From an uncultured Fidelibacterota bacterium (lineage in GTDB: Bacteria; Fidelibacterota; Marinisomatia; Marinisomatales; TCS55): a stretch of DNA of 64,000 bases. The position numbers and the translations under genes are program-made. The stretch is taken from NCBI GenBank assembly GCA_902615915.1, contig CACMQQ010000003.1, forward strand, positions 124,001 through 188,000, read 5' to 3'. Below, piece after piece: positions 53,959-58,227 of the stretch. How positions within the stretch are numbered: position 1 is the first letter of the stretch; each line of letters opens with the position of its first letter. Under the pieces are notes generated by a model. The model searched no databases, was not told where the DNA came from, and saw only the letters and a list, made by a program, of their open reading frames with translations.

Positions 53959-53996
53959 AAAAAAAGCCCCCACAAAAAGCGGAGGCTTTTTCTTGA
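53959..53996 (-). terminator. Rho-independent terminator of the 75-residue repeat gene
   Basis: On the minus strand an 8-bp stem AAAAAGCC/GGCTTTTT (53961-53968 with 53984-53991), extended by C-G pairs, has a short loop and runs into a T-rich tail. It sits 13 nt past the stop codon of the 75-residue gene. The reverse orientation also has a T-run, so it may act in both directions. Confidence 0.75.
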
Positions 53997-54008: not shown

Positions 54009-54236
54009 TTATTTACGCCCTCTTGCCATGGGTGATCGCCCAACATTGCCATTCTTATCTATAAAATATAGATAACCAGCTTCGCGAGTTACACCAGCAT
54101 CTGCAACTTTCTCAGCATTTCCACCGCCTTTTCCAGCGCGAGCCATTTGAGAACGCCATACATGCCCATCTTTACCTAGATAATATAAGTAACCAGATTC
54201 TTTAGTTACTCCAGTTTCTTTTACAACTTCAGCCAT
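54009..54236 (-). CDS. 75-residue protein made of two tandem 28-residue repeats
   Basis: Two repeats are visible, residues 9-36 and 48-75, with 17 of 28 identical positions: G-V-T-[KR]-E-x-G-Y-L-Y-x3-K-x-G-x-V-x-R-S-x-M-A-R-x2-K. A Gly-rich linker joins them. The protein is very basic, with no signal peptide or membrane helix, so it is likely cytoplasmic. AGGAGGT lies 7 nt before the ATG, and a strong terminator follows, so it looks like a well-expressed single-gene unit. I do not recognise an established function; a nucleic-acid or ribosome-binding role is only suggested by the charge. Confidence 0.8.
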   Translation of the reverse strand: MAEVVKETGVTKESGYLYYLGKDGHVWRSQMARAGKGGGNAEKVADAGVTREAGYLYFIDKNGNVGRSPMARGRK

Positions 54237-54243
54237 AATTATG

Positions 54244-54250
54244 ACCTCCT
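54244..54250 (-). promoter_or_regulatory. Perfect Shine-Dalgarno of the 75-residue repeat gene
   Basis: AGGAGGT on the minus strand ends 7 nt before the ATG at 54236. Few genes in this window have such a complete site, which suggests high translation. Confidence 0.8.
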
Positions 54251-54322
54251 TCGTATGTTATTTTTTGGTAAATATCACTTTGTTGGTTCAATTGTACGAT
54301 GTATCTAGAATAAGATGCAACA

Positions 54323-54420: not shown

Positions 54421-54494
54421 GCCCCGGTAGCTCAGCTGGATAGAGCATCTGCCTTCTAAGCAGAGGGTCACAGGTTCGAATCCTGTCCGGGGTA
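54421..54494 (+). tRNA. tRNA-Arg (anticodon UCU)
   Basis: A complete cloverleaf: acceptor GCCCCGG/CCGGGGT with discriminator A, D-loop AGCTCAGCTGGATAGAGC, anticodon stem TCTGC/GCAGA with loop CTTCTAA (anticodon TCT), and T-arm CAGGTTCGAATCCTG. CCA is not encoded. Confidence 0.97.
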
Positions 54495-54499
54495 CTTAC

Positions 54500-55146: not shown

Positions 55147-58100
55147 ATGAAACGAGTTACAATTTTTCTTTCAATTTTTACTAGTTTTTTAATCGCACTA
55201 AATAATGACAAACCAAATTTTAAAAATTTAAATTTTAGATTCATTGGACCGGATGGTAATCGCGCTATAGCAATAAGTGGCGTTTCTAGTGATCACAATA
55301 CCTATTATGTAGGAGCAGCTTCAGGAGGTTTATTTAAAACTACAAATAAAGGAATCTCCTGGGAGCCCATCTTTGACGATCAAGATGTTTCTTCTGTAAG
55401 TGCAATTGCTATTTCTCAAAAAAATCCTAACATTGTTTGGGCAGGCACTGGTGAGACTTTTTTAATCAGGCCAGCTCACGCTATAGGAGACGGCATTTAT
55501 AAATCTGAAGATGGTGGTGAGACATGGAAGAATATGGGGTTGCAAAAAACAGCAAGAATAGCAAAGATAGTTATTCACCCCAAAAATGATAAGATTGTAT
55601 ATGTTGCTGCTTTGGGCCACACTTTTGGCCCACAAGAAGATAGAGGAATTTACAAAACTACAAATGGTGGTAAAACATGGAAGAAAATTTTATTTATCGA
55701 TCAAAATACTGGTGGCATCGATATTGCCTTAGATAGAAAAAACCCTAATTTTTTAATCGCCAGCATGTGGGAAATTTATATCAATACCTGGGGCCTCAAT
55801 AGTGGTGGTGAGTCTGGAGGCGTATTTATTTCAAAAAATGCAGGAAAATCATGGGAAAGACAAGACAAAAATGGACTGCCTGGAGGCAAAGGAAAACCTG
55901 TAGGAAAAATTGCTGTATCAATATCACAAAGCAATCCCAATACTATGTATGCACTATGTGAGGAAAAACATCCCGGTCTTTACAGAACTGACAATAAAGG
56001 AAAATCATGGTATTTAGTTAGCAGAAATCATACTTTGGCTGAGCGAGCTCCATATTATATGAGAATGGCAGTAGATCCAAATGATCCTGAAAGAATTTAT
56101 GTTTTAAATGTGCAGTATAGTGTTTCGGAAAATGGAGGAAAAACCTTTAAATCTGGATATAGCGCAGGTGGCGATAATCATGATATTTGGATAGACCCCG
56201 AAAATGGAAAAAGAATCATGGTGGCCCATGATGGTTGTGCAAGCATAATGGAAAATGGAAAAGACTTTAAACGCATTGTCCTTCCAATCGCACAAATGTA
56301 TCATGCGCATGTGGATGATCAAATCCCTTACAATGTCTACGGTAACAGGCAGGACGGTTATTCATACAGGGGTCCAAGCAACAGTAGGGAGCGTGGAATA
56401 AATTTGGGACACTGGAGAGCATTCGGAGGGTGTGAATCAGGCTTCGGAATTCCAGATCCCAATGACAACAACATTGTTTGGTCGGGCTGTTACGATGGTG
56501 GGCTTGAGGTTTATAATGTAAAAACCGGACACGCCCGAAATGTAAGAGTTTGGCCTGAAGCGGCTTATGGTTGGGCACCCAAAGATTTAAAATACAGATG
56601 GCACTGGACATTTCCTATTCACATTTCTGAGCATAAAAGAAATACAGTTTATGTTGGGAGTCAATATGTACACAGAAGTTCAAACCAAGGACAATCTTGG
56701 GAAATAATCTCTCCAGATTTAACCCTTAATTTAAAAAGTCACCAAGAAAGCTCAGGGGGCATTGCTATTGATAATCTAATGACATTTGATGGCTCGGTTC
56801 TTTTTGCAATTACTGAATCTTCCATTGAAAAAGATCTTATTTGGGCTGGAAGCAATGATGGGCAAGTTCATATTACCCGAAATGGTGGAAAGACATGGAA
56901 AAATGTTACTGATAATATCGATATGCCACCATGGGGTACCATCTCAAACATTGAAACTTCTAAGTTTAAAAAGGGTAAAGCATATATCAGTGTAGATCTT
57001 CATCAAATGGCAGATTTTGACCCGTATATTTTTGTTACAGAAAATTATGGAAAATCGTGGAAAAAAATTACGAATGGTATTCCAAATAGCTATTCAAGCT
57101 TCGTTCATGTTATAAAAGAAGATTATTATGATAGTTCAGTTTTATTTGCTGGAACGGATAACGGATTATATTATTCTGTAAATGATGGAAATAATTGGAA
57201 CAGATTGAAAAACAATCTTCCTCCAGCGCCTGTCTATTGGATTAGTTTGCAAAAACGGTTTGATGATATGGTTGTGGGTACCTATGGCAGAGGTATATAT
57301 ATAATGGATGACATTAGCCCAATAAGAGAACTAGCAAAAAAGGATCTTTCAATCGATCAATTACTGCCAACTCAAAGTGCATATCGATTTCAAATGCTAC
57401 AAGCTATGAAAAGTGATGGGTCTAGCCTAATTAACGGAAGAAATCCAAGCTACGGAGCTAATATAGATTTTTATTTAAGCGACGAAAATAAAAAATCTAT
57501 TTTCATAGAAATAAAAAATAAAGATCTTGAAGTTGTGAGAAAATTAGATGTCAAAAAATTCACAAAAGGGGTTAACAGAATAATGTGGGATTTACGTTAT
57601 GAACCAACTACAACCCCCAAGCTGCGTGTTGATCCAGATGGTGTAGACTGGGTTAAATATAATTCTGACGGTTGGAGACCTTTGAGAACATGGGATCTTG
57701 ATGTTAATGCTGGCAAGCTAGGGCCTTTGGCTGTTCCAGGACAGTATAGTGTGACGCTAAAAATTGATGGAAAGGAATATTCAAATAAATTTGAAGTATT
57801 AAAGGATCCTAACACAATAGGCACATTGACTGATATAAATGATCAATTTCAGTTTTTGTTTACGCTTAGAAATACTATAAACGAAACTGTTGATCTAATA
57901 AATAAAATTGAAAATATTCGATTTGATCTTCAAAATAACGATAAATCATCTAGATCTCAAAAATTAGAAAGAGAGCTTTACAGAATTGAGAGTAACCTTT
58001 TTGATACCAAGCTCACTGGTGCCAGAGAAGATGCCTTTAGGAATCCTAACAAAATCTATGGACGCTTAGCTGCTCTAGGGAGTGATCTGACTAGATTTGG

Positions 58101-58227
58101 ATCTGATTTTAAACCAACTGATCAGCAGGTTGAAGTATATAATGTGTTATCAAATAGGTTAATTGAGCAAAAAAAAGATTTTGACAAGGTGATGAAAAAT
58201 GAATTTTGGTATTCAGAGAATAAATAG
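55147..58227 (+). CDS. Exported Asp-box (VPS10/sortilin-like) beta-propeller protein
   Basis: The 1026-residue protein has a signal peptide (about 1-18) and at least nine Asp-boxes of the form S/T-x-N/D-x-G-x-S/T-W, for example KTTNKGISW, KSEDGGETW, KTTNGGKTW, SKNAGKSW, RTDNKGKSW, RSSNQGQSW, TRNGGKTW, TENYGKSW and SVNDGNNW. They mark two stacked propellers over about residues 30-720. The C-terminal third (about 730-1026) has a beta domain (YSVTLKIDGKEYSNKFEV) and a helical tail. Such proteins are often annotated as glycosyl hydrolases, but no catalytic residues can be named. GGAG lies 7-10 nt before the ATG. Confidence 0.88.
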   Translation: MKRVTIFLSIFTSFLIALNNDKPNFKNLNFRFIGPDGNRAIAISGVSSDHNTYYVGAASGGLFKTTNKGISWEPIFDDQDVSSVSAIAISQKNPNIVWAGTGETFLIRPAHAIGDGIYKSEDGGETWKNMGLQKTARIAKIVIHPKNDKIVYVAALGHTFGPQEDRGIYKTTNGGKTWKKILFIDQNTGGIDIALDRKNPNFLIASMWEIYINTWGLNSGGESGGVFISKNAGKSWERQDKNGLPGGKGKPVGKIAVSISQSNPNTMYALCEEKHPGLYRTDNKGKSWYLVSRNHTLAERAPYYMRMAVDPNDPERIYVLNVQYSVSENGGKTFKSGYSAGGDNHDIWIDPENGKRIMVAHDGCASIMENGKDFKRIVLPIAQMYHAHVDDQIPYNVYGNRQDGYSYRGPSNSRERGINLGHWRAFGGCESGFGIPDPNDNNIVWSGCYDGGLEVYNVKTGHARNVRVWPEAAYGWAPKDLKYRWHWTFPIHISEHKRNTVYVGSQYVHRSSNQGQSWEIISPDLTLNLKSHQESSGGIAIDNLMTFDGSVLFAITESSIEKDLIWAGSNDGQVHITRNGGKTWKNVTDNIDMPPWGTISNIETSKFKKGKAYISVDLHQMADFDPYIFVTENYGKSWKKITNGIPNSYSSFVHVIKEDYYDSSVLFAGTDNGLYYSVNDGNNWNRLKNNLPPAPVYWISLQKRFDDMVVGTYGRGIYIMDDISPIRELAKKDLSIDQLLPTQSAYRFQMLQAMKSDGSSLINGRNPSYGANIDFYLSDENKKSIFIEIKNKDLEVVRKLDVKKFTKGVNRIMWDLRYEPTTTPKLRVDPDGVDWVKYNSDGWRPLRTWDLDVNAGKLGPLAVPGQYSVTLKIDGKEYSNKFEVLKDPNTIGTLTDINDQFQFLFTLRNTINETVDLINKIENIRFDLQNNDKSSRSQKLERELYRIESNLFDTKLTGAREDAFRNPNKIYGRLAALGSDLTRFGSDFKPTDQQVEVYNVLSNRLIEQKKDFDKVMKNEFWYSENK

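Follow-up and report, generated by a model that had tools for sequence, protein, structure and literature searches.

A two-repeat microprotein gene with a candidate palindromic operator at its promoter in Neomarinimicrobiota and Marine Group III archaea

Small DNA-binding antitoxins autoregulate via palindromes at their own promoters (PMC4803016). A microprotein of an uncultured Fidelibacterota bacterium resembles the AbrB/MazE-type and ribbon-helix-helix antitoxins as well as the phage proteins Cro and Arc in its very small size, in the putative operator dyads at its own promoter and probably also in negative autoregulation. In contrast to these proteins, it is all-beta by prediction, carries tandem repeats in one chain and has neither a partner gene nor a family match, and its putative operator is found at sigma70 promoters in bacteria and at TATA promoters in archaea. 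Sul7d, Cren7 and HU are likewise small and basic, the former two also beta-rich. Neither Sul7d nor Cren7 is among the matches of the PDB sequence search or among the Foldseek matches listed, and the microprotein is set apart from all three by two homologous repeats, a specific putative operator at its own gene and its coexistence with HU in bacteria. An aromatic beta-hairpin repeat with a D-x-G turn is shared with the choline- and cell-wall-binding repeats (PF01473, PF19127), whereas the microprotein stays below the threshold of these families, lacks a secretion signal, is basic and has a conserved R-S-x-M-A-R tail. Two phage families of unknown function (PHROG 9154 and 38594) show repeat-level similarity to members of the microprotein family (E down to 2.4e-5), in partial alignments only (24 residues for the protein studied here).

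The window, i.e. the whole stretch of 64,000 nucleotides analysed (contig CACMQQ010000003.1, positions 124,001 to 188,000), carries the microprotein gene on its minus strand (Table 1), and translation from 54236 to 54009 yields MAEVVKETGVTKESGYLYYLGKDGHVWRSQMARAGKGGGNAEKVADAGVTREAGYLYFIDKNGNVGRSPMARGRK. A first-pass annotation had described a microprotein built from two tandem 28-residue repeats, preceded by a perfect AGGAGGT and followed by its own terminator, and this description was borne out in each of these points. The ORF starts with ATG and has relatives within the phylum that are 72-91% identical. The two repeats are identical at 17 of 28 ungapped positions, whereas 5000 shuffles agreed at 5.4 positions on average and never at more than 10. 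AGGAGG was found at the Shine-Dalgarno position of none of the 50 ATG ORFs of at least 150 amino acids in the window (GGAGG or AGGAG in four), and the terminator is located just downstream of the gene. The same annotation called the protein strongly basic; with a predicted pI of 9.7 and a net charge of +4.6 it is basic, though not extremely. Neither a signal peptide nor a membrane segment is visible in the ORF. The gene is present in a single copy in its own genome, and both the promoter type (TTGACA-18-TACACT) and the ribosome-binding site look strong. Divergent from the gene lies a tRNA-Arg (TCT) gene (54421-54495), and a similar tRNA start adjoins the microprotein gene in at least one relative (L190). 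A further divergent neighbour, encoding a 1026-aa Sortilin/BNR-repeat protein (55147-58227), is conserved in 11 of the compared loci.

Table 1. Features of the microprotein locus (positions in the window unless given as amino acids)
Feature	Position	Strand	Description
Microprotein gene	54009..54236	minus	ATG ORF; 75 aa, two repeats
Repeats 1 and 2	aa 9-36 and aa 48-75		motif GVT.E.GYLY...K.G.V.RS.MAR
Shine-Dalgarno AGGAGGT	54244..54250	minus	assigned from sequence
Intrinsic terminator	53959..53993	minus	35-nt stem-loop, then T7; -22 kcal/mol
-10 box TACAAT	54291..54296	minus	18-bp spacing to -35; layout shared by relatives
-35 box TTGCAT	54315..54320	minus	TTGACA in most relatives
Candidate operator, inverted pair TCTCCTCGG-TCTA-TCGACGAGAA	54326..54348	minus	five bases upstream of -35; sole pair in own genome

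A characterised family was sought as a refutation of the earlier statement that no function is described, and none was significant. The searches of Pfam, NCBIfam and PADLOC gave no family above cut-off or significant for the microprotein, the best PDB matches had E values of 0.12 (hmmsearch) and 0.34 (Foldseek) with no DNA-binding fold recognised, and a viral fold search returned no significant match. PF00216 (HU/IHF) did not match the microprotein, HU being encoded by a separate gene in genome G000. Peptide strings of the microprotein were not found in a literature search. The microprotein is a genuine, conserved protein that has not been described before. The AlphaFold2 model is all-beta and of fairly high confidence (pLDDT 88, pTM 0.71), with six strands arranged as two three-strand units, and a one-repeat relative was modelled with three strands at low confidence.

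The wider family includes several other architectures. The protein had been annotated as stand-alone, which holds in Neomarinimicrobiota and fails elsewhere, where fused relatives exist. In six Marine Group III loci (L124, L167-L171) the two-repeat domain is C-terminal to HEAT repeats in proteins of approximately 265-287 aa. A Thermoplasmatota protein (L125:1495-2376, reverse strand) combines two N-terminal repeats with an Mrr_cat restriction-endonuclease domain (Pfam E 1.4e-33) and a transmembrane segment. Thermoplasmatota also have a divergent form with a KEQ signature (L113-L121), and a second, divergent paralogue was found in Marine Group III (L127-L131 and L134; also L135-L137, with a succinyl-CoA ligase subunit gene close by). 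Stand-alone forms of one repeat are approximately 42 aa long (L122, L133, L146), and L146 is a virus-classified contig on which phage-like genes adjoin. Both one- and two-repeat forms are encoded on virus-classified contigs. One of these contigs, 430 kb in size, encodes a two-repeat relative with a C-terminal extension (L143:4001-4396) and also a DnaJ-like protein and metabolic enzymes.

When genome contigs were scanned, 335 relatives were identified. The best 80 of these 335 belong mostly to Neomarinimicrobiota (72-91% identical) and also include Marine Group III/Poseidoniia archaea (74-75% identical). Among the Neomarinimicrobiota (Marinimicrobia), to which the genome of the window belongs as judged from these relatives, the gene is present in 169 of 245 genomes and in 68 of the 94 near-complete ones, nearly always as one copy. 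Its occurrence in Thermoplasmatota is limited, with 19 of 243 genomes (E <= 0.001), and in the class to which Marine Group III belongs it was detected in 17 of 293 genomes (E <= 1e-20). In the tree, the Marine Group III clade is supported and nested inside bacterial sequences, the nesting forks being weak (75 columns); the archaeal sequence L166 is placed outside this clade. A gene transfer from bacteria to Marine Group III is suggested, its direction being weakly resolved. The one contig checked for its flanks (L077) is archaeal, with genes named from their sequence as ThrRS and GGGP synthase. No account of a transfer between Marinimicrobia and Marine Group III was found in the literature searched. 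Spread through Bacteroidota was rejected, since 198 genomes of that phylum gave a single match, labelled 'Cryomorphaceae', which is probably a contaminant contig. Mislabelling or contamination probably accounts for two loci, titled Thaumarchaeota SAT137 (L028) and Cryomorphaceae bin.919 (L057), whose copies and promoters are Neomarinimicrobiota-like. A mobile gene was likewise rejected: there was no plasmid match and only a marginal phage match, and the relatives on virus contigs are distant and were found with a broad profile only.

A structured leader had also been reported for the gene. The hairpin in question is located upstream of the -35 box, outside the expected transcript, and therefore should not be transcribed. 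Folding of the leader region was close to that of shuffled sequences (z = -1.17; 26 of 200 shuffles fold equally well), and an Rfam search of this region gave no family at gathering score. An RNA leader or riboswitch was dismissed on these three grounds, and the best reading of the hairpin is that of an operator in the DNA.

When the upstream DNA of the relatives was compared side by side, a sigma70-type promoter (CTTGACA-18-TACACT/TACAAT) was found to be conserved. In the bacterial relatives this promoter is surrounded by copies of the dyad TCGWCGA, mostly extended to CGAGAA. Half-sites were counted as YCGWSGAGAA with at most one mismatch in 73 upstream regions of Neomarinimicrobiota; at least one copy is present in 67 of them, compared to an expectation of 0.046 per 170 nt, and six have no recognisable half-site. 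The preferred offsets from the -35 box are -28/-27 (inverted), -14 (direct), +10/11 (in the spacer) and +33 (just after the -10 box). For the inverted pair, a spacer of 4-5 bp, corresponding to about one helical turn, is preferred across 78 loci. The locus in the window has the inverted pair, and the copies in the -35/-10 spacer and after the -10 box, which many lineages have in addition to the pair, are not recognisable there; some other lineages (L063, L066, L067, L073) mainly kept the latter two sites. A variant, CCGACGGAAA, precedes the -35 box in deep families, and the deep lineages have this variant, AGAGGAGAAA or degenerate sites.

The 10-mer half-site occurs six times in the genome from which the window was taken. 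Two of these copies form the microprotein promoter pair and the remaining four appear within coding or rRNA sequence, as read from ORF maps. Without mismatches, the paired pattern matched in 4 of 41 genomes, always at the microprotein gene. With up to two mismatches it was found at this gene in 52 of 245 genomes (50 matched by hand to gene positions, two confirmed separately). Every match with no or one mismatch in the 245 genomes is at the microprotein gene, and the 16 pair matches elsewhere all have two mismatches and are not commoner than those of a reversed-pattern control. In these 245 genomes the full paired site is thus practically confined to the microprotein gene. The bacteria have a dedicated palindrome at the gene's own promoter that is absent at full strength elsewhere. 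In GC-rich archaeal genomes the loose pair motif (two mismatches) is too common to gauge uniqueness, and its presence at the gene stands.

In Marine Group III, the region upstream of the gene was readable in 14 loci, and the 7-mer TCGWCGA is present in all of them. Its position relative to the start codon is -59 to -63, and it precedes the TATA box by 19-23 bp. The copy next to the TATA box is exact in 12 of the 14 loci and has one base changed in L105 (ACGACGA) and L109 (TCGTCGT), the latter having an additional exact copy 12 bp upstream of this one. The operator pair, with a 5-bp spacer, is found in the GC-rich members of Marine Group III. The archaeal upstream regions of distant clades are 46-53% identical in global alignment, which we take to be near the level of unrelated DNA. 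Since the upstream DNA is otherwise nearly unrelated between the clades, the motif is apparently kept by selection in the archaea, too. The motif is absent from the more distant archaeal relatives L110 and L111 and from the relatives on virus contigs, and none was seen in the one region inspected upstream of the second paralogue (L128).

The core transcription machineries of bacteria and archaea differ, and regulatory sites are not expected to be functional after transfer between the domains. Because of this difference, the microprotein is the one shared trans factor known. A strong site which is used once per genome and is kept throughout a phylum and in archaea with an unlike polymerase recruitment would therefore most simply be bound by the protein encoded there. 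We consider the chances about even that the microprotein is a sequence-specific DNA-binding protein repressing its own promoter. The small, basic, all-beta protein would bind the TCGWCGA(GAA) sites, and its pair of homologous repeats within a single chain might serve as a built-in pseudo-dimer reading both halves of TCG-W-CGA. Occupancy of the operator would block RNA polymerase in bacteria and the recruitment of TBP/TFB in archaea; the positions of the sites, over the -35 and -10 boxes in the former and beside the TATA box in the latter, fit with repression. Since both the promoter and the ribosome-binding site look strong, synthesis of the protein would be fast and its amount would then be held at a set level. 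As no further genomic site of full strength was found, the main work of the protein beyond autoregulation is probably general binding of DNA or RNA, as an abundant nucleoid or stress protein under tight dose control, rather than the regulation of many genes. The first-pass annotation had guessed at binding of nucleic acid or of the ribosome. Nucleic acid is the best guess, and the dyad array at the promoter, found nowhere else at full strength, points to DNA at the operator rather than to the ribosome. A somewhat bolder reading, to which we give a little less than an even chance, is that the microprotein represents a new all-beta, two-repeat DNA-binding family whose TCGWCGA site moved with the gene between the domains and works on sigma70 as well as TATA promoters.

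The operator might instead be the target of another protein, a dedicated regulator with its gene elsewhere that controls only the microprotein gene, while the microprotein itself has another job such as binding RNA, the ribosome or a protein. This is the strongest of the alternatives, although we regard it as rather unlikely. It would be in line with the lack of a recognised DNA-binding fold and with the basic character and Gly-rich loops of the microprotein, and its occurrence as a fused module, next to HEAT repeats in several archaea and elsewhere together with a transmembrane segment plus Mrr-type nuclease, suggests a general role in binding. A single-target factor, however, would need co-conservation throughout the phylum plus co-transfer to the archaea, and no gene-neighbour cluster was seen in common between the bacterial and archaeal loci, so that there is no candidate for such a factor.

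It is improbable, but partly compatible with autorepression by the microprotein, that the latter is a non-specific architectural protein of the nucleoid whose dose is set by the operator, bound either by itself or by another factor. Small size, basic character, a mostly single-copy, phylum-wide gene and a promoter and ribosome-binding site that look strong would suit such a protein, as would the finding that HU-family proteins, the one group of chromatin proteins tested for, are present in none of seven Marine Group III genomes. On the other hand, the net charge is modest, and the Neomarinimicrobiota also have HU (nine of nine genomes tested).

An antitoxin-like autoregulator of a toxin-antitoxin module is very unlikely, although palindromes at the own promoter are known as autoregulation sites of small DNA-binding antitoxins (PMC4803016). 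The terminator follows directly downstream, a conserved adjacent partner is lacking and a toxic partner is largely absent from the neighbourhood, where the next genes encode a DUF420-like protein, a YceI protein and, further on, an outer-membrane-type protein; moreover, there was no PADLOC match and the gene was not found on plasmids. A cell-wall or choline-binding-like surface repeat, proposed for the resemblance of the GYxYxxxxG motif and weak sub-threshold matches to choline-binding and glucansucrase repeats, is hardly credible given the lack of a visible signal peptide or membrane segment and of any score over the Pfam cut-off, the presence in archaea and phages and the conserved Lys/Arg pattern.

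The unexpected result is the same putative operator at one gene in two domains, where the promoter is of the sigma70 type in the bacteria and has a TATA box in the archaea. If the microprotein binds this operator, gene and site would form an autoregulatory unit that is both minimal and portable, and the DNA-binding domain would be one not described before. Most members of the phylum, which is marine, abundant and uncultured, carry this candidate unit, and an anonymous microprotein thereby becomes a directly testable problem.
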